Below are positions 47,370 through 56,004 of a stretch of DNA of 64,000 nt, in pieces (position 1 is the first letter of the stretch; every line of letters starts with the position of its first letter). Under the pieces are notes generated by a model. That model was not told the DNA's origin. It ran no database searches and saw only the letters and a list, made by a program, of their open reading frames with translations. The DNA lies in contig JAKACT010000001.1 of assembly GCA_021821195.1 (NCBI GenBank), positions 62,001 through 126,000 of the forward strand, given 5' to 3'. The stretch comes from Pseudomonadota bacterium. GTDB taxonomy: Bacteria > Pseudomonadota > Gammaproteobacteria > Xanthomonadales > Xanthomonadaceae. The translations under genes and the position numbers were made by a program.

Positions 47370-49028
47370 ATGCTGACCCGCCTTTCAATCCGTGATTTCG
47401 CCGTCGTCGCCCATGCCGAACTGGACTTCGGCGCGGGCCTGACCGTCGTGTCGGGCGAAACCGGCGCCGGCAAATCGCTGCTGGTGGATGCGCTGGGCTT
47501 CTTGTCCGGCGCCCGCGGCGATGCCGGGGCGGTCCGCCACGGCGCGCAGCGTGCGGAACTGTCCGCCGAGTTCGCGCTGGACGACTGCCCTGCCGCCACC
47601 TGCTGGCTCGCCGAGGCCGAACTGGACGACGACGGCGCCTGCCAGCTGCGCCGCACCCTGCGCGCCGACGGCGGCTCCAAGGCCTGGATCAACGGGCGCA
47701 GCGTCACCATCGCCCAGCTGGCCGAACTGGCCGCGCTGCTGGTGGAAATCCACGGCCAGCACGCCCAGCAGGCGCTGCTGGTGCGCCCGCAGCAGACCCG
47801 CCTGCTGGATGATTTCGCCCGCCATCCGGACCTGCTGGCCGCCACCGGCGAATCGGCGCGACGCTGGAAAGCATTGCAGCAGGAACGCGACGCCCTGCTC
47901 GCTCGCGGCGACGTGGCCGAGCGCCAGGGCTGGCTGCAGCACCAGCTGGAGGAACTGCAGGCGCAGCCGCTGGAACCCGCGGTGCTGGCCGAACTCGACG
48001 CGAGCCATCGCCGCCATGCCCACGCCGCCTCGCTGATCGCCGCCTGCGATGCGGCGCTGGAGGCACTGGGGGGCGATGACGCGCTCACCGGCCGCCTGCA
48101 GCAGCTGCGCAATGGCCTGCAGCGCGAAACCGCGCACGAGCCGCGCCTGTCGGAGGTCGATGCGATGCTCGACTCCGCCGCCATCCAGCTCGACGAAGCA
48201 CTGGCCCTGATGCAGCGCATCCGCGACGACCTCGAGCTGGATCCCGACGCGCTGGCCGAGATCGAGCGCCAGCTCGTCCGCGTGCAGGACCTGGCGCGCA
48301 AGCATCGCGTCACCCCGGACAAACTGGCCGCGCACCGCGACGCGATGGCCGCGGAACTGGAGTCGCTGGCCGATGCCGACGCGCGCCTGCAGCGCCTCGA
48401 CCGCGACATCGCCGCCGCGTTGGCGCAGTGGCGCACTGCCGCCACCGCCCTCGCCGCCTCGCGCCGAAAGGCGGGCGACGCGCTGGGCGTGGCCATCAGC
48501 GCGCTGATCGGCGAGCTGGGCATGCAGGGCGGCTGCTTCGAAGTGGCACTGGAAGCCAACGCCAGCGACAGCCCCGACCCGAGCGGCAGCGAGCGCGCGG
48601 AATTCCTCGTCTCGGCCAATCCAGGCCAGCCGCCGCGCCCGCTGCGCAAAGTCGCCTCCGGCGGCGAGCTCTCGCGGGTGTCGCTGGCGATCGAAGTGGC
48701 CACGCAGGGCCAGGATGCCGCGGCGACACTGGTGTTCGACGAAGTCGATGCCGGCATTGGTGGCGCGGTGGCCGCCGCGGTCGGCGCCAAGCTGCGCCAG
48801 CTTGGCGCATCGAAGCAGGTGCTGTGCGTGACCCACCAGCCGCAGGTCGCCGCCGCCGGCCACGCCCAATACCGCGTCAGCAAGGCCGCGCAGGACGGCA
48901 TCACCCAGTCCTCGGTGGCCGCGCTGGACGCAGCCGGCCGCGTGGACGAGATCGCCCGCATGGTCGGCGGTGCAGATGTCAGCAAGGAAGCCCGCGCCGC
49001 GGCGAAGAAGCTGCTGGAAACCCCCTGA
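47370..49028 (+). CDS. recN: DNA repair protein RecN
   Basis: SMC-like ATPase (552 residues) of double-strand break repair, cytosolic. Walker A is GETGAGKS at about residues 30-37. The coiled-coil middle is long and arginine-rich, the family hinge segment LLVEIHGQHAQQ is present, and the C-terminal signature and Walker B are SGGELSRVSLAIE and LVFDEVDAGIGG. It is divergent from hrcA and read towards the accessory block. A CACAAT box lies eight nt before the ATG, again suggesting a very short leader. No LexA box was recognised. Confidence 0.95.
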   Translation: MLTRLSIRDFAVVAHAELDFGAGLTVVSGETGAGKSLLVDALGFLSGARGDAGAVRHGAQRAELSAEFALDDCPAATCWLAEAELDDDGACQLRRTLRADGGSKAWINGRSVTIAQLAELAALLVEIHGQHAQQALLVRPQQTRLLDDFARHPDLLAATGESARRWKALQQERDALLARGDVAERQGWLQHQLEELQAQPLEPAVLAELDASHRRHAHAASLIAACDAALEALGGDDALTGRLQQLRNGLQRETAHEPRLSEVDAMLDSAAIQLDEALALMQRIRDDLELDPDALAEIERQLVRVQDLARKHRVTPDKLAAHRDAMAAELESLADADARLQRLDRDIAAALAQWRTAATALAASRRKAGDALGVAISALIGELGMQGGCFEVALEANASDSPDPSGSERAEFLVSANPGQPPRPLRKVASGGELSRVSLAIEVATQGQDAAATLVFDEVDAGIGGAVAAAVGAKLRQLGASKQVLCVTHQPQVAAAGHAQYRVSKAAQDGITQSSVAALDAAGRVDEIARMVGGADVSKEARAAAKKLLETP

Positions 49029-49046
49029 CGCCCGGCCGCTTGCCTT

Positions 49047-49082
49047 TGCCCGATTTGGGCATTACCTTGCCCGTTATGGGCA
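49047..49082. promoter_or_regulatory. Double palindromic operator of the wHTH-nucleotidyltransferase gene
   Basis: Two 15-bp inverted repeats, TGCCCGATTTGGGCA (49047-49061) and TGCCCGTTATGGGCA (49068-49082), share identical arms. Their centres are 21 bp apart, two helical turns, so both face the same side of the DNA. The second repeat contains the ATG start codon of the downstream gene. This is the layout expected for cooperative autorepression by a dimeric winged-helix protein, which that gene encodes. Confidence 0.75.
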
Positions 49083-49792
49083 CGACCCCACGCCATCGCG
49101 TCAGTGAAGCCGCAGCGCTTTACGCCAGCACCAATCTGGCGGATGCCCTGTTCACCGCCACCCAGCAGCGCGTGCTGGGCTGCCTGTTCGGCGACCCCGG
49201 CCGCACCTGGTCCATCAGCGAACTGATCCAGACCACCGGCGCCGGCAGTGGCGCAGTGCAGCGCGAAGTGGCCCGCCTGTCCGGCAGCGGCCTGCTGCTG
49301 ATGGAACCGCTGGGCAACCAGAAACGCTACCGCACCAATCCGGACGCCCCGATCCACGACGAGCTGACTGCCATCGTGCGCAAGACCTTCGGCCTGGCCG
49401 GCCCGCTGCGCGAAGCGCTGGCGCCGCTGGCGGACCGGCTTCGCATGGCCTTCGTCTACGGCTCGGTTGCCAAGGGCAGCGACACCGCCCGCAGCGATAT
49501 CGACCTGATGCTGGTGACCGATGACCTGACCTATCCCGAGGTCATGGCCGCACTGCATCCGCTGATGGAACGCCTGGGCCGCGAGATCAACCCCACCCTC
49601 TACACCCCCGCCGACCTGCGCAAACGCATCGCCGCTGGCAACAGCTTCGTCACCCGCGTACTGGCCCAGCCACGCATCTGGCTGATCGGAAATGAACGTG
49701 GCATGGCGGCGTGCAAGGGGAACGCAGGGACAACGCAGCACCCGGGGTCACTACAATCGCGTGCAGCGACCGCCAAAGGACAGCCCACATGA
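49076..49792 (+). CDS. Winged-helix / minimal nucleotidyltransferase (MNT) domain protein
   Basis: A 238-residue cytosolic protein. Residues about 22-90 form a winged helix (ATQQRVLGCLFGDPGRTWSISELI through NQKRYRTNPD), and residues 100-200 an MNT-type nucleotidyltransferase domain. The active motif is complete: GS at 129-130 with the aspartates D141 and D143 (VYGSVAKGSDTARSDIDLMLV). Stand-alone MNT domains are usually antitoxins paired with HEPN toxins, but no HEPN gene is adjacent. The last 30 residues after IWLIGNE look like non-family extension. The start codon lies inside the second operator palindrome. The stop overlaps the next ATG by 4 nt. Confidence 0.85.
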   Translation: MGTTPRHRVSEAAALYASTNLADALFTATQQRVLGCLFGDPGRTWSISELIQTTGAGSGAVQREVARLSGSGLLLMEPLGNQKRYRTNPDAPIHDELTAIVRKTFGLAGPLREALAPLADRLRMAFVYGSVAKGSDTARSDIDLMLVTDDLTYPEVMAALHPLMERLGREINPTLYTPADLRKRIAAGNSFVTRVLAQPRIWLIGNERGMAACKGNAGTTQHPGSLQSRAATAKGQPT

Positions 49793-49998
49793 TGAATACC
49801 CAAGACATCGTCAGACAGGCGCTGGCCCTGGACCCCTCCAAGCGTTTCGAGGTGGTGGAGGAAATCCTGCATAGCCTTGATCAGCCCGATCCCGCAATCG
49901 ATGCCGTCTGGCTGCAGGAGGCAGAAAGGCGACTGGCCGCCTATCGCAACGGACAGGCACAGGGAATTCCCGCTGAAGACATCTTCGGTACGTTTTGA
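49789..49998 (+). CDS. Addiction-module antitoxin (Unstable_antitox family)
   Basis: A 69-residue antitoxin. The pattern ALALDPSKRFEVVEEILHSLD followed by IDAVWLQEAERRLAAYRNGQ and IPAEDIFG is typical of the PF09720 family, which pairs with ParE/RelE toxins. AAAGGA lies 8 nt before the ATG at 49789; a second ATG follows directly. The gene overlaps the upstream nucleotidyltransferase stop (ATGA) and its own stop overlaps the toxin start (TGATG), so all three genes are translationally coupled. No DNA-binding domain is apparent in the antitoxin itself, so control may rest with the upstream protein. Confidence 0.88.
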   Translation: MMNTQDIVRQALALDPSKRFEVVEEILHSLDQPDPAIDAVWLQEAERRLAAYRNGQAQGIPAEDIFGTF

Positions 49999-50324
49999 TG
50001 CCCGCACCTGGCATGCGGCTGGTCTTCGCGCCGGAGGCGCGCCAGGAATTCCTTGCCGCCGAGCTTTACTACAACCAGCAAGTTGCCGGCCTGGGCGCGG
50101 CATGGCGCGAGGAAGTCATGGCCGCCTTGCGGCGCATCCGTCGCTGGCCGCTGGCCTGCCCGGTGGAGCACGCGGAGATCCGCCGGCTGACCTTGAGCCG
50201 GTTCCCGCACAAGTTGCTTTATGCCGTGGAGGCCGATCACCTCTACATCATCGCCATCGCGCATCAGCACCGACAACCGGACTATTGGACACGCCGCGTT
50301 GTGCGCGTGCAGGACGGGGATTGA
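49998..50324 (+). CDS. ParE/RelE-family toxin
   Basis: A 108-residue toxin. The ParE core is clear: RLVFAPEARQEFLAAELYYN, GLGAAWREEVMAALRRIRRWP, and RRLTLSRFPHKLLYAVEADHLYIIAIAHQHRQPDYW, with the conserved C-terminal strand and basic residues. ParE members poison gyrase while RelE members cleave mRNA; sequence alone leans to ParE. The ATG at 49998 overlaps the antitoxin stop. A start at 50013 (MRLVFAPEA) would fit the family length better and is possible. Confidence 0.88.
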   Translation: MPAPGMRLVFAPEARQEFLAAELYYNQQVAGLGAAWREEVMAALRRIRRWPLACPVEHAEIRRLTLSRFPHKLLYAVEADHLYIIAIAHQHRQPDYWTRRVVRVQDGD

Positions 50325-50435
50325 CCGTGCCGGACGCGCATGCAGTATTGAATGCGAAGCTGCTTCTGGATGTGGTCGCAGCCTGCGCGACGGCGGCGGC
50401 CACCATTGGAAATTGACGCAAAGGGATTCAAACGC

Positions 50436-52337
50436 ATGAGCAACCCGGCTACCACCGGCACTTCCCCCAGCCTGCTGGCGCGCCTTGAGGCCATGACCGC
50501 GCCGGAGCTGCGCCGCCTGCTGGTGGAACATCTGGGCAAGCGCAAGCTGGGCCTGTACTGGGAGAGCGACGCGATCGCCCGCGATGCCGCGCTCAATGCC
50601 GACATCGTGCTGCCCCGCCAGCACCCGGAACTGGGCCATCGCGCCGCCGACATGGCAGCCGACGCGCCGCATCGCAACCTGATCATCGAGGGCGACAACT
50701 TCGATGCGCTGCGCCTGCTGCGCACCACCCACGCCGGCCGCATCCGGGTGATCTACATCGACCCGCCCTACAACACCGGCAACAAGGACTGGGTCTACAA
50801 CGACCGCTACGTGGGCGCCAACGACCGTTGGCGGCATTCGCAATGGCTGGAGTTCCTGTATCGACGACTGACGCTGGCGCGCGATCTGCTGGCACCCGAT
50901 GGCGTGCTGCTGGTGTCGATCAACGACGAAAACCGGGCGAAGCTGGAACTGCTACTGGATGAGGTGTTGCCGGGAAGGCGAATTGGGTCGCTGGTGTGGC
51001 GGACGCGCGATACGACAAGCGCGAAAGATCGCAACTTCAGCGATGTGCATGAGCATGTGCTTGTGTACGGAAACGAAGGTTTTTCGTTCAATGGCAGCGA
51101 GAAGACGCAACGCAAATACAAAAATCCGGACAGGGATCCGCACGGGCCATGGAACGGCGATCCGCTTACGTTGGCTTTTGATCGCTTTGATCGGCCGAAC
51201 TTGTACTACCCGCTTCATGACCCAAAGAAAAATCGCTGGTATCCGTGCGATTCGAACCGCGTGTGGGCCTATGCAACGGAGGATCGCGTAACCGACTCCA
51301 GTTCTTTGCAATCGGAAACCATGGAGGAATGGATCAGGAGAGAGAAAATCATCTTCCCCGATGAGGAAGAAACCAGAACTTGGAACACTCTGGACGAGCT
51401 GCTTGCTGCTATTGATGCAGGCGATGTCCCCGTGACTCCGAAGCGAAAGCGGCCATTGCTTACGCGCGACACACCAGACTTAGATTTTTGGGTTGGAAAG
51501 ACCATTGGATTCGGAAGGCCGCTTTTCAAGAAGCACTGGAAAGACCTGCGGAGCCACACCAACCCTTTGGGGTCGTGGATCGCCCGCTTGACCGAAACCC
51601 ACGACGACGAAGACTTCACATCTCTGCGCTCACCGCAAGCAGGTGAAGGAACTGAAGTGATCCAAGAGGTACTCGGCTCAAAGGTATTCCAGTACCCGAA
51701 GCCGCCGACGCTTATTCGAAATCTATTGCGGCAGGCCACTACACCCAACGACATCATCCTCGACTTCTTCGCCGGCTCCGGCACCACCGGCCAGGCCGTG
51801 CTGGAACTGAATGCCGAAGACGACGGCGCACGCCGCTACATCCTCTGCTCCAGCACCGAAGCCACCGCAAAAGAACCCGACAAGAACCTCTGCCGCGACG
51901 TCTGCGCCGAGCGCATGCGCCGCGTCAGCGCCGGCTATGCCGGCAAACCCGGCTACAGCGCGGCACAAGGCGGCGAATTCGCCTACCTCACCCTGGACAG
52001 GTTCAGCCCGGCCGATTTGCCGTTCGAGGCCAGCACCGAACATGCCCTGCCCCTGCTGGGCCTGCGCCTTGCGCAGGCGCTGCCGGCCCGCGCATCCGGC
52101 GATGTGCAGCACATCGCCCGCGCCGGCGATTGCGACATCCTGCTGTGCACGCAGGTGAACGCCGACAGCATCGACACCCTGGCCCAGTGGGCCGCCGCGC
52201 ACGACGTGGTCCGCATCGCGGTGTATAGCGAGCGGCCGGAATCGCTGACGGAAGCACTGGCCGCGCGCAGCGTGGAGGCTGCCTGCTACGGCCTGCTGGA
52301 CGTGCTGCGCCAAGGGCAGGCCGGGGGGCGCGCATGA
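50436..52337 (+). CDS. mod: Type III restriction-modification methyltransferase (Mod), beta class
   Basis: A 633-residue adenine-N6 DNA methyltransferase that also supplies sequence recognition for the restriction complex. Catalytic motif IV is DPPYNTG (109-115) and the S-adenosylmethionine motif I is FAGSGTT (445-451). The order IV, target-recognition region, I marks the beta class. Residues about 180-435 between the motifs are encoded by DNA of much lower GC than either flank. The start has AAGGGA upstream and yields MSNPATTGTSPSLLARLEA. It overlaps res by 4 nt and follows the toxin gene by 111 bp. Close relatives in type I-like or orphan systems exist, but the adjacent helicase-nuclease supports type III. 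Confidence 0.9.
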   Translation: MSNPATTGTSPSLLARLEAMTAPELRRLLVEHLGKRKLGLYWESDAIARDAALNADIVLPRQHPELGHRAADMAADAPHRNLIIEGDNFDALRLLRTTHAGRIRVIYIDPPYNTGNKDWVYNDRYVGANDRWRHSQWLEFLYRRLTLARDLLAPDGVLLVSINDENRAKLELLLDEVLPGRRIGSLVWRTRDTTSAKDRNFSDVHEHVLVYGNEGFSFNGSEKTQRKYKNPDRDPHGPWNGDPLTLAFDRFDRPNLYYPLHDPKKNRWYPCDSNRVWAYATEDRVTDSSSLQSETMEEWIRREKIIFPDEEETRTWNTLDELLAAIDAGDVPVTPKRKRPLLTRDTPDLDFWVGKTIGFGRPLFKKHWKDLRSHTNPLGSWIARLTETHDDEDFTSLRSPQAGEGTEVIQEVLGSKVFQYPKPPTLIRNLLRQATTPNDIILDFFAGSGTTGQAVLELNAEDDGARRYILCSSTEATAKEPDKNLCRDVCAERMRRVSAGYAGKPGYSAAQGGEFAYLTLDRFSPADLPFEASTEHALPLLGLRLAQALPARASGDVQHIARAGDCDILLCTQVNADSIDTLAQWAAAHDVVRIAVYSERPESLTEALAARSVEAACYGLLDVLRQGQAGGRA

Positions 52338-54991
52338 GCTCGCTGCAGCTGACCGCCGCGCAATCCGCCGGGCTGGTGCCGGTAGGCTTCCAGAGCGAGA
52401 TCATCGACAACATGGCCGCCGCCCTGCTGCGGCAGCCCTCGCCGCCCTGCCTGTTGCGCGCGCCCACCGGCTCCGGCAAGACCTTCATGCTGGCGGGCGT
52501 GCTGGCCAAGGTGTCGGCGGCCCAGCCCACGGTGTGGCTGTGGTTCGTGCCCTTCGTCAACCTGACCCAGCAAACCGAAGACTCGCTGCTGGCCAACGCA
52601 CCGGGCCTGACGCCGGTGATGCTGGCCCGCGGCCGCAACCAGGACCCCACCGCCGGCACCGTACTGCTGTCCACCGCCCAGGCCGTGGCCCGCGCCAAGG
52701 ATCGCAAGGCCGGCTACGCCGCCGACGGCGACGATGAGCGCACCACGCTGGACGAATTCGTGGCGATGGCACGGGTGCGCGGCCTGAAGATCGGGCTGGT
52801 GGTGGACGAGGCCCATATCGGCCTGGACCACGGCACCGAGTTCGGCCAGTTCGCCCATTGGCTGGCACCGGACTATCTGGTGATGGCCTCGGCCACGCCC
52901 AAGGACACCCGGCTGGACGAGTTCTTGGCCCATTCCGGCAAGGGCGCGCGCGAAGTCTTCACGGTCAGCCGGGCGGCAGCGGTGGAAGCGCGGCTGAACA
53001 AGCGTTACGTGGAAGCGGTTGTGTACGACCTTCGCCACGGCGTATCCACCATTGCCGACCTGGAGCGCACCGTGTTGCGGCAGGCGTGGCTGCAACACGT
53101 CTGGCTGAAACAGCAGCTGCAGGCCGCCGGTATCGACCTGATGCCCTTGCTGCTGGTGCAGGTAGGCAACGGCGAGAAAACGGTCGAAAACGCCCAGCGC
53201 GAACTGGTGCGGTTGTGCAAGGTGCCGCCTGCGGCCATCGGCACCCATTCCGCCGATGCGCCGGACCCGGTGCTGATGGCTGCGATCGCCAATGACCACA
53301 GCAAGCAGGTGCTGATCTTCAAGCAGTCGGCAGGCACCGGCTTCGATGCCCCGCGCGCGTTCGTGCTGGCGTCCACCAAGCCGGTCAACGACCCCGACTT
53401 CGCCATGCAGTTCATCGGCCGGGTGATGCGGGTGGCGCAGGCACTGCGCAAGGCATTCCCCAAGCCGCAGCCCATTCCATCGGAGCTGGACACCGCCTAC
53501 ATCTATCTGGCCGACGCGCAGGCGCAGCAGGGCTTCCAGTCGGCGGTGAACACCGCCGGCGCCGTACAGAGCCAGCTGGAAGGCCAGACCGAACGCATGG
53601 TGGCGAGGCAAACACCCTCGGGGGCGACTGTCTTCAGCAATCGGATCACGCCGCAGCTGCCGGTCACCTATGCGGCGAATCCGCCAGATTGGGAGCCGTC
53701 TGAGGTGACTGTCCACGTGCCCGATGCCAGCGTGGAAGGGCGGCAATCCGGACTGTTCGCAGCGGTCGCGGGCGACGATCCTGCGGTGGACGCCGGCAGC
53801 ACCCTGATGGGCTGGGACCGGATGCCGGCCAAGCCCGCCGCGCCCCACGCACTGCCAGCCGACGCATCCGCATTGGAGGAGGCGTTGCAGCAGCAAGGCT
53901 TGAAGGTGTATCGGCGGCAGCAGCTGCATGGCGCACCCGCAGCGTTGAAGCAGGAAACCCGCCCCATGCTGGCGCAGATGGCCGACGTCTCGCGTCGGGC
54001 GGCAAGCGACCTGCCCTTGGGCGAAGCGTTGATCGCCAATGCTGTACGCGCAGCCTGCAATGCCCTGCGCGAGAAGGAAATCCACACCGAACTGACCGCC
54101 AACACGCGCCGCGAGCAGGACGTGGACATCATCACCGACCGCGCCGCCTTGCTGCGTGAGGCGGAAAGCGCCTTGCGCCGCATTCCGCAGGTGGAGGACG
54201 AAGATATCCGCATCATCGTGGCGACGCTGGCGCAACGCCTGATGCCCCATGTGGCGGCTGCTGCAGCGGCAGCGCCTGCAGATGAAAAACAACTGGAGCG
54301 ACTGGCGCGCGATGCCGCCTGCTGGGTCATCCGCAGGCAGGCGCAGGCACTGGGCGAAGCGGTGCTGGATGCCATCGCGGCCTGCTCCGAGGTGAACGAT
54401 GCCGGCCCGCTGCCCGACGCCATGCTGTATCCGCTGCAACACGCGCTGCTGCCTTCGCGCAAGAACCTGTACGGCGTGGTGCCACCACTGCTGGACGAAA
54501 TCGAAGCCCAGCGCGCCGAGCTTTCCATCGACGCGCAAACCACGTTGGCGGCGTCCATGCAGGAGTTCGCAAACGGTCGCTGGCTCACCGCCGGCTTCGA
54601 CGGCGCGTCTGCCGTCAATCTGGAGGAACGCGAGTTCATCGCCGCGCTGGACCGGGACGATGCCGTGCTCTGGTGGCACCGCAACCCGGATCGGAAACCG
54701 TGGTCGGTCAGGCTGGTTCGCAGCGAGCACGGCAACTACTTCTATCCGGACTTCGTGGTCTGCCTGCAGCGTGCCGGTGATTCCGCCGCAATGACCCGCC
54801 TGATCGAGACCAAGGAAAGCACCAAGGACGCCTCACGCAAGGCGAGGCGCGTACCGAAGATCTATGGCAAGGTCATGTTCGTCACCAAGGACAACCAGCA
54901 ACTGCGCATCGTCAACGACGATGGCAGCCTTGGAACTAGTTTCGACTGGAATGACCTGACGCCCGCATGGGACTGGCTGGAGGCGCATTGA
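52334..54991 (+). CDS. res: Type III restriction enzyme Res subunit (helicase-nuclease)
   Basis: An 885-residue ATP-dependent restriction subunit. Superfamily 2 helicase motifs: Walker A APTGSGKT (43-50), DEAH box (158-161), SAT (186-188), and [13 protein letters not shown] as motif VI. The C-terminus carries a PD-(D/E)xK nuclease: D806 in YFYPDFVV, and E825 with K827 in RLIETKES. All key residues are present, so the enzyme should be active. It overlaps mod by 4 nt. It ends only 2 nt before the ACMSD gene, whose ribosome-binding site therefore lies within res. Confidence 0.88.
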
Positions 54992-54993
54992 GC

Positions 54994-56004
54994 ATGCTCA
55001 AGATCGACACCCACGCCCACTACCTGCCGCGCGACTGGCCGGACCTTGCCGCCAAGTACGGCGACAACCGCTTCCCGGTGATCCACCACGGCGATGACGG
55101 CCGCCACCGGATCTACAAGGACGGCAAGTTCTTCCGCGAGATCTGGCCGAAGACGTGGGACCCGCAGATCCGCATCGACGACTACGCCGGCTTTGGCGTG
55201 CAGGTGCAGGTGCTGTCCACGGTGCCGGTGATGTTCAGCTACTGGGCGAAGGCGCACCAGGCGCTGGAGCTGCACAAGTCGCTCAACGACCACATGGCGC
55301 AGACCTGCCGCGACTTCCCGCGCCATTACGCCGGCATCGGCACGGTGCCGATGCAGTCGCCGCAGCTGGCCGTGCGCGAGCTGGAGCGTTGCATGGACGA
55401 GCTGGGCCTGCAGGGCGTGCAGATCGGCTCGCACATCGGCGACTGGAACCTGGATGCACCGGAGCTGTTCGAGTTCTTCGAGGCCGCCGCCGATCTGGGC
55501 GCGGCCATCCTCGTGCACCCCTGGGACATGATGGGCGCCGAGTCGATGCCGAAATACTGGCTGCCGTGGCTGGTCGGCATGCCCGCCGAGCAGTCGCGCG
55601 CCGCCTGCTGCCTGGTGTTCGGCGGCGTGCTGGAACGCCTGCCGAAACTGCGCATCGCGCTGGCCCACGGCGGCGGCAGCTTCCCCTACACCATCGGCCG
55701 GATCGAGCACGGGTTCAACATGCGCCCCGACCTCGTCGCCACCGACAATTTCCGCAATCCGCGCGAGTATCTGAAGCGCCTGTACTTCGATTCCTGGGTG
55801 GCCGATGACGCCGCGCTGCGCTACCTGCTCGAAGCCTGCGGCAGCGACCGGGTGATGCTGGGCACCGACTATCCGTTCCCGCTGGGCGAGCAGGTGCCGG
55901 GCGAAGGCATCGAACGGCTCGGCCTGGCCGACGCGCAGCGCGCACGGCTTTACCACGGCACCGCGCTGGAATGGCTGGGCCTGTCCGCATCGAGGTTTGC
56001 ATGA
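54994..56004 (+). CDS. 2-amino-3-carboxymuconate-6-semialdehyde decarboxylase (ACMSD)
   Basis: A 336-residue metal-dependent amidohydrolase-fold decarboxylase of the kynurenine pathway. It removes CO2 from the ring-opened product of 3-hydroxyanthranilate, diverting carbon to catabolism instead of quinolinate and NAD. The zinc ligands H7 and H9 (DTHAHYLP), the histidine of VHPWDMMG and the aspartate of LGTDYPFP are present. GGAGG lies within the last codons of res before the ATG at 54994. It overlaps kynU by 4 nt (ATGA). The dioxygenase gene that makes its substrate is not in this window. Confidence 0.92.

Follow-up and report, generated by a model that had tools for sequence, protein, structure and literature searches.

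A twin palindrome over the predicted promoter and start codon of a winged helix-nucleotidyltransferase gene is a probable autorepression operator

Autorepression via paired palindromes is already known from a controller (C) protein restriction-modification (R-M) system, AbiE and HEPN-MNT. In the HEPN-MNT module MntA-HepT (SO_3165/SO_3166), SO_3165 binds and represses its own promoter, which contains two palindromes near the -10 and -35 elements; the protein has no predicted DNA-binding domain, and the two palindromes are dissimilar (PMC4621449). A survey of MNT-HEPN pairs published in 2009 wondered about a DNA-binding component acting in trans (PMC2701414). In AbiE (AbiEi/AbiEii), a winged helix (wHTH) autorepressor controls the nucleotidyltransferase operon from two 23-bp elements that are spaced by 3 bp and lie over -35, -10 and +1, with the wHTH antitoxin and the nucleotidyltransferase being separate proteins (PMC3985639). 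The R-M controller C.Csp231I has palindromes with 18 nt between them, which serve for activation as well as for repression (PMC4824078). RptR, which is encoded by the first gene of type I R-M islands, represses its own promoter; it is a small helical dimer that reads the 6-bp sequence TAGCTA, and this motif is conserved together with the protein (the main text of the report does not contain the word nucleotidyltransferase; PMC12255303). Finally, the candidate defence system PDC-M05 has been described by its gene content and archaeal enrichment, with an unconfirmed antiviral role (PMC12988326), and the accessible parts of its descriptions in PMC12988326 and PMC12584637 do not mention an operator.

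We analyzed a stretch of 64,000 nt, referred to as the window, in which an earlier note had pointed out two TGCCC-N5-GGGCA palindromes with identical arms, the second of which encloses the start codon of the following gene. Re-checking of the coordinates (Table 1) confirmed both statements: the centres are 21 bp apart, and the ATG is located at positions 49076-49078, within the second palindrome.

Table 1. Features of the window around the twin palindrome
Feature	Position	Strand	Remarks
recN (RecN by NCBIfam)	47370-49028		Upstream gene; site 1 begins 19 bp past its end
Predicted -35 element, TTGCCT	49040-49045	+	4/6 to consensus
Putative operator site 1, TGCCCGATTTGGGCA	49047-49061	.	Within the 17-bp spacer of the predicted promoter; centre 49054
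Predicted -10 element, TACCTT	49063-49068	+	3/6 to consensus
Putative operator site 2, TGCCCGTTATGGGCA	49068-49082	.	Covers the predicted +1 and the start codon; centre 49075
wHTH-nucleotidyltransferase, 238 aa, proposed autorepressor (PADLOC PDC-M05A)	49076-49792	+	Profile match, structure model
PF09720 antitoxin-like gene	49789-49998	+	ATGA overlap with the regulator stop
Small gene at the toxin position	49998-50324	+	No Pfam, NCBIfam or PADLOC match
Type III methyltransferase (Mod)	50436-52337	+	
Type III restriction subunit (Res)-like	52334-54991	+	

Single TGCCC-N5-GGGCA sites occur twice in the window where 0.20 are expected, and two or more were present in 5 of 100 shuffles. The exact pair is found once in the window and once in the whole 2.92-Mb genome. 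When up to three mismatches are allowed, 0.01 pairs are expected in the window; its sole further match has three mismatches. Genome-wide, three places besides the exact pair match with three mismatches. Genome-wide, there are 11 single sites (two at the window pair and nine elsewhere), versus three for a reversed-pattern control. These counts point to a local operator. A wider regulon is unlikely, given that the exact pair occurs only once and that the three inspected sites out of the nine elsewhere all lie within predicted ORFs. A scan of the window with Rfam yielded nothing reaching the gathering threshold, and a tRNA scan detected none.

The product of the gene starting in site 2 (P0001) matches the PDC-M05A profile PDLC04368 with 271.5 bits (1.1e-81), in a library that has no cut-off. 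According to a structure model (mean pLDDT 87.7), residues 28-87 would form a winged helix, in which helix 58-70 occupies the recognition position, and residues ~106-205 a nucleotidyltransferase domain. The modelled wHTH half resembles ArsR/MarR-type repressors (3pqk_A, Z 10.9, rmsd 1.8, 76 aligned), and the modelled nucleotidyltransferase half resembles MntA (7bxo_E, Z 10.2, rmsd 2.4, 100 aligned), with the protein scoring 29.7 bits against the NCBIfam MntA_antitoxin cut-off of 60. The motif GSx10DxD is kept in 62 of the 63 aligned proteins, including that of the window; the exception is the protein of locus L122. The final ~30 residues of the window protein form an unrelated tail that is absent from the relatives compared; the nucleotidyltransferase domain is intact.

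The distribution of this regulator family is patchy: the profile has matches in 44 of 296 genomes of the same family, 15 of 398 of the phylum, 57 of 369 of the class and 4 of 385 of another class. Among 14 control genomes, the archaeon Methanosarcina acetivorans alone gave a match. At 1e-5, no regulator homologue was found in phages; viral contigs, covered by one pattern scan, likewise had no match. For the analysis of upstream regions we assembled the window and 120 homologue loci, of which 55 came from one genome scan, 57 from family and phylum searches and the remaining eight from 13 plasmid matches; removal of 10 near-identical loci left 111. The region 30-130 bp ahead of a conserved anchor codon was scanned for palindrome pairs, requiring palindromic arms but ignoring base identity, with spacings of 16 to 31 bp as controls. 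At a spacing of 21 bp, at least 8 of the 10 arm pairs were formed in 91 of 111 loci, compared with 12-41 loci at other spacings and a mean of 5.15 (maximum 12) in shuffles. At least nine pairs were formed in 62 loci (other spacings 0-7; shuffles 0.4), and all 10 in 32 (0 at other spacings and in shuffles). A hold-out set of 70 new loci from further genomes, 69 after removal of one near-identical locus, gave 33 loci with at least eight pairs (other spacings 3-14; shuffles mean 3.4, maximum 8), 13 with at least nine (other spacings 0-3) and six with 10 (others 0-1). Conservation of the layout among homologues is far above chance, with the threshold of eight arm pairs being missed by 20 of 111 loci in the first set and by 36 of 69 in the hold-out set.

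The literal TGCCC pair is present in 23 of the 111 loci. Judged from this comparison, the conserved element is a pair of 15-bp palindromes at 21 bp rather than the TGCCC pair as such. The earlier note had suggested examining the DNA upstream of homologues and giving up the operator if the TGCCC pair were lacking there; the twin layout bears the idea out, while the literal form of that condition would wrongly reject the operator. A chance origin of the inverted repeats, like a role as the recN terminator, has next to no probability. Site 1 does begin 19 bp past the end of recN, but the pair also precedes the regulator behind other upstream genes (as far as the crude gene calls tell), and a terminator scan did not report the element. 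Chance origin is at odds with the expected number in the window given above and is contradicted by the conservation in both the 111-locus and the hold-out sets.

Two loci (L026:5878-5913 and L028:5878-5913) contain an extra twin palindrome pair with a like arm type, located 61 bp ahead of the pair at the regulator itself. We considered that this pair serves a divergent gene and rejected it, as both reading directions run into a stop after 4-14 codons. One genome (G921:C2, loci L174 and L175) has two regulator copies ~6.4 kb apart, both with an operator of the TTCAT type.

The relatives also help to place the promoter. Among the 91 twin-site loci, a TTG is located 7 bp ahead of palindrome 1 in 60, whereas no other offset between -30 and -1 exceeds 13. 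A TA....T of which the last base is the first of palindrome 2 is present in 66, and both are so placed in 58. With this placement, palindrome 1 would fill the 17-bp spacer between the -35 and -10 elements. The predicted window promoter is weak with respect to the consensus (7/12 by hand count), and its hexamers are absent from the calls of a consensus promoter scan of the window.

The start codon lies within palindrome 2 in most of these 91 loci: there is an in-frame ATG at offset 8 in 54, a TTG in 17 and a GTG in two; of the others, six have an ATG at offset 7, four an ATG at further offsets and eight none. A Shine-Dalgarno-like 4-mer is present in the 20 nt upstream in only 2 of the 55 loci with an ATG at offset 8. 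In the window, the A of the ATG is the eighth base past the predicted -10 element. Since the predicted +1 thus nearly coincides with the start codon, the regulator mRNA is probably leaderless. The idea that a TTG in palindrome 2 is a universal leaderless start in the group with GTCCC arms was discarded, because three of the 21 members cannot use it: a stop separates the TTG from the ATG in L028, and L046 and L090 lack an in-frame start there. In locus L118, the database gene start (4986) is 6 bp past an in-frame ATG (4980) in palindrome 2; annotation may miss starts inside such operators.

A pair of bound dimers had been proposed to block either transcription or translation. A transcription block is the more likely of the two on the evidence of the promoter prediction, because palindrome 1 lies between the predicted -35 and -10 elements and palindrome 2 on the predicted +1; translation is the less likely target. 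A different role, in RNA, would be that pairing among the four arms conceals the start codon in a transcript reading through from recN, providing translational control or insulation. The + strand of 49040-49090 indeed gives a fold of -20.2 kcal/mol (z -3.9) in which the ATG is part of a stem, and the stretches of L026 and L104 fold with z-scores of -5.0 and -5.7. Such folding is, however, expected of any four like arms, and site 1 would be outside the normal mRNA given that the predicted +1 is in palindrome 2. This role would also leave unexplained the fixed 21-bp spacing, the position on the promoter and the fact that the arms track a DNA-reading helix (see below), and we regard it as very improbable.

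The arms differ among lineages, with TGCCC, TACCC, GTCCC, TTCCC and TTGCY being found. Sites 1 and 2 are matched to each other, as the arm match is 0.89 within a locus and 0.68 between loci (0 of 5000 permutations). For the 79 loci that have at least eight arm pairs and in which site 2 contains an in-frame start (effective number 25), the majority half-sites are TGCCC (36), TACCC (15), GTCCC (13), TTCCC (7), TTGCC (4), TTGCT (2), AACCC (1) and AACCA (1). A blind mutual-information scan of the alignment columns of these loci against the whole half-site ranked Q62 (0.72), S58 (0.67) and S46 (0.65) above the best nucleotidyltransferase column (0.57); these values are inflated by sequence kinship, and nucleotidyltransferase columns score high too. 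Q62 and S58 are located at the start of the modelled helix 58-70. Per base, the same 79 loci gave R208 followed by Q62 for base 1, S46 followed by S58 and Q62 for base 2, and Q30 and G39 for base 3. When the scan was applied to the hold-out set (33 loci, 192 columns), columns 62 and 58 ranked first and second for the whole half-site, by a small margin (0.71 versus 0.69 for D136, a nucleotidyltransferase column); for bases 1-2, S58 came 7th and Q62 8th, and for bases 3-5 they came 3rd and 6th, respectively. That the same two DNA-facing positions are on top in both sets is what a cognate repressor predicts, though phylogeny contributes.

A rule relating helix to arms, fixed before the new genomes were viewed, was applicable to 39 hold-out loci. 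It was correct for 18 of these, and for 17 of the 21 with a clear twin site. Its Q62 clause held in 18 of 30 loci (17 of 20 if the twin site is clear), the clause assigning TTCCC to H62 was wrong in all nine of its loci and was dropped, and the two remaining clauses had no hold-out cases. A finer rule assigning TGCCC to S58 was also abandoned: hold-out loci with S58/Q62 carry TACCC in six cases and TGCCC in four. In the resulting pattern, Q62 goes with TRCCC, R58/Q62 always with TACCC (6/6 and 3/3) and K58/M62 with GTCCC or TTCCC (18/18). Two classes were noticed after the rule had been fixed, namely V58/K62 with TTCAY (8/8, two of them of one genome) and R58/R62 with GACCC (5/6); R58/S62 is mixed (TCCCC in three, TACCC and GACCC in one each). 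Operator and putative recognition helix change together, so that lock and key would differ by lineage. The proposal that the downstream winged-helix protein is the reader of the site is thus favoured by comparison, as the layout follows the gene and the arms track the helix, but the literal motif it was tied to is not conserved. In the literature searched, which consisted mainly of open-access articles, we found no published description of this operator or of such a helix code for PDC-M05A.

In the relatives, the usual second gene encodes a HEPN-type partner. Such a partner is located within 3 kb downstream in 92 of the 111 loci and in most of them its ORF begins ahead of the regulator stop. 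The gene calls around the loci are crude, and these counts rest on searches with a profile made from 29 of the partners found; three of the 92 matches are weak (L017, L043 and L117, with E above 1e-4). The four partners that were scanned gave PDC-M05B matches of 4.7e-50 or better. A model of one partner is similar to HEPN proteins, though with a weak E-value (2hsb, 2.6e-03, TM 0.69), and a sequence search for a solved relative found none. The aligned partners (alignment A1, n = 29) contain a literal Rx4-6H in the C-terminal part in 25 cases and RNxxxY in 28. The usual HEPN pattern is RNxxxH, with a histidine at the place of the partners' tyrosine; the residue AMPylated in MntA-HepT is a tyrosine close to this motif.

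No HEPN partner was found downstream in the window or anywhere in its genome (PDLC04373, E <= 1), and the window is therefore a solitary M05A rather than a PDC-M05 two-gene system. It is one of 18 loci for which no partner was found, several of which are gene fragments or have short downstream DNA. In toxin-antitoxin operons, the complex is often the better repressor, and with a partner in 92 of 111 loci one could suppose that another protein reads the operator, or that the wHTH-nucleotidyltransferase does so only together with its HEPN partner. Against this, 14 of these 18 loci, the window included, keep the palindrome pair at the threshold of at least eight, and the best-associated residues sit in the regulator's own helix; this supposition has a very small probability in our estimation. 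The near relative L011, in which the regulator likewise follows a recN-like sequence, retains the partner. The comparison of the window with L011 gave a dN/dS of 0.05/0.41 (NG86, 170 codons), which fits a functional gene, but most of the divergence may predate the loss of the partner. The L011 regulator (L011:6001-6612) ends early in a frameshift-like manner, with the BLAST match stopping at window residue 178; this may be an assembly error.

Downstream of the window regulator are instead the antitoxin-like gene, a small gene that by eye we take to be ParE/RelE-like, and the type III R-M pair. With the regulator and antitoxin genes overlapping by ATGA, it is plausible that they are transcribed together. 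The earlier note's view that the operator controls this whole coupled cassette is weak, given that the usual second gene is the HEPN-type one, which the window genome lacks. The antitoxin and toxin have no match at 1e-6 among the 120 other homologue loci, whose flank lengths differ. Relatives of Mod at E <= 1e-150 occur in 5 of the 296 family genomes, the other four being outside the 44 with a PDC-M05A match, and tblastn with the regulator, antitoxin and toxin in the stretches around those four gave no match. Methyltransferase genes do recur near the regulator in relatives, and distant Mod-like matches are present in three distinct ones, downstream in L012 (L012:6460-7610, plus its twin L061) and L116 (L116:662-1714) and upstream in L038 (L038:5200-5493). 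On this evidence, both the R-M pair and the toxin-antitoxin genes are probably passengers downstream of the promoter, and Mod probably lies outside the conserved regulatory unit.

The R-M pair also brings to mind a timed switch like that of a C-box, with activation from one site at a low protein level and repression from the other at a high level. For C.Csp231I, tandem palindromes having n5 loops have been described together with autoregulation and a seemingly leaderless mRNA (PMC4824078), and the type III genes downstream together with the Mod-like matches near the regulator in L012, L116 and L038 would suit such a switch. However, palindrome 1 in the predicted -35/-10 spacer (58 of 91 loci with both elements) occupies a position expected to repress, and Mod-like matches in three distinct loci of 120 compare with a HEPN-type partner in 92 of 111. 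We consider the switch improbable.

In L011, the partner is followed by a methyltransferase-like remnant (by eye) and then by an MntA-like gene (39.1 bits, cut-off 60). The stretch L011:6625-8150 and the window stretch 49028-54991 have different defence-type contents between recN and kynurenine-pathway genes, which in the window are a kynureninase by NCBIfam and an ACMSD by eye (54967-56004). The interval between recN and the kynurenine genes looks like a defence-gene hot spot.

Taken as a whole, the sequence comparisons make it highly probable that the twin palindrome serves as the operator through which the wHTH-nucleotidyltransferase gene behind it is autorepressed. Because 21 bp corresponds to about two helical turns, two winged-helix protein dimers would sit side by side on the same DNA face, one over the -35/-10 spacer and the other over the transcription start, and would thereby exclude RNA polymerase. 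The sites with their spacing and position, their conservation and the association of helix and arms are seen directly in the sequences, while binding, dimer pairing, repression, the leaderless start and an inducing signal are inferred parts of this autorepression model. PDC-M05A is reported to rise in phage-infected Burkholderia (PMC12584637), and this rise fits derepression. We also entertain, as a rather doubtful extension, that repression by the fused protein is gated by a nucleotide or by the partner and that the window exemplifies promoter capture from one defence module to another. The nucleotidyltransferase domain, with the HEPN partner if present, would sense or perform nucleotidyl transfer and so set operator affinity, and infection or a nucleotide change would lift repression of a leaderless, quickly translated transcript. 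The window would have kept operator and regulator, with the HEPN gene having been replaced by the toxin-antitoxin and type III R-M cassette. PDC-M05 is a candidate defence module. The helix-to-operator pattern makes DNA binding testable per variant and provides a DNA handle on what induces these modules, and the variants may offer orthogonal repressor-operator pairs.

The genetic organization of the locus combines features of the systems described above. With HEPN-MNT it shares the MntA-like nucleotidyltransferase half and, in the relatives, the order nucleotidyltransferase followed by HEPN; it differs in that the window protein is a wHTH fused to a nucleotidyltransferase, in having like sites 21 bp apart and in the absence of a HEPN gene. 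The DNA-binding component that the 2009 survey considered in trans would here be fused in cis and accompanied by a conserved operator. Of the PADLOC candidate PDC-M05, which consists of the M05A nucleotidyltransferase and the M05B HEPN protein, P0001 matches the former and the relatives' partners the latter. With R-M controller proteins such as C.Csp231I, the locus has in common twin palindromes, 5-nt loops and location at the regulator's own (here predicted) promoter. C proteins are small stand-alone HTH proteins, whereas the window wHTH is, in the structure model, fused to a nucleotidyltransferase fold as an enzyme domain, and its sites cover the -35/-10 spacer and the +1 as predicted here. 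In contrast to AbiE, in which two proteins share these tasks, the window has both domains in one polypeptide.
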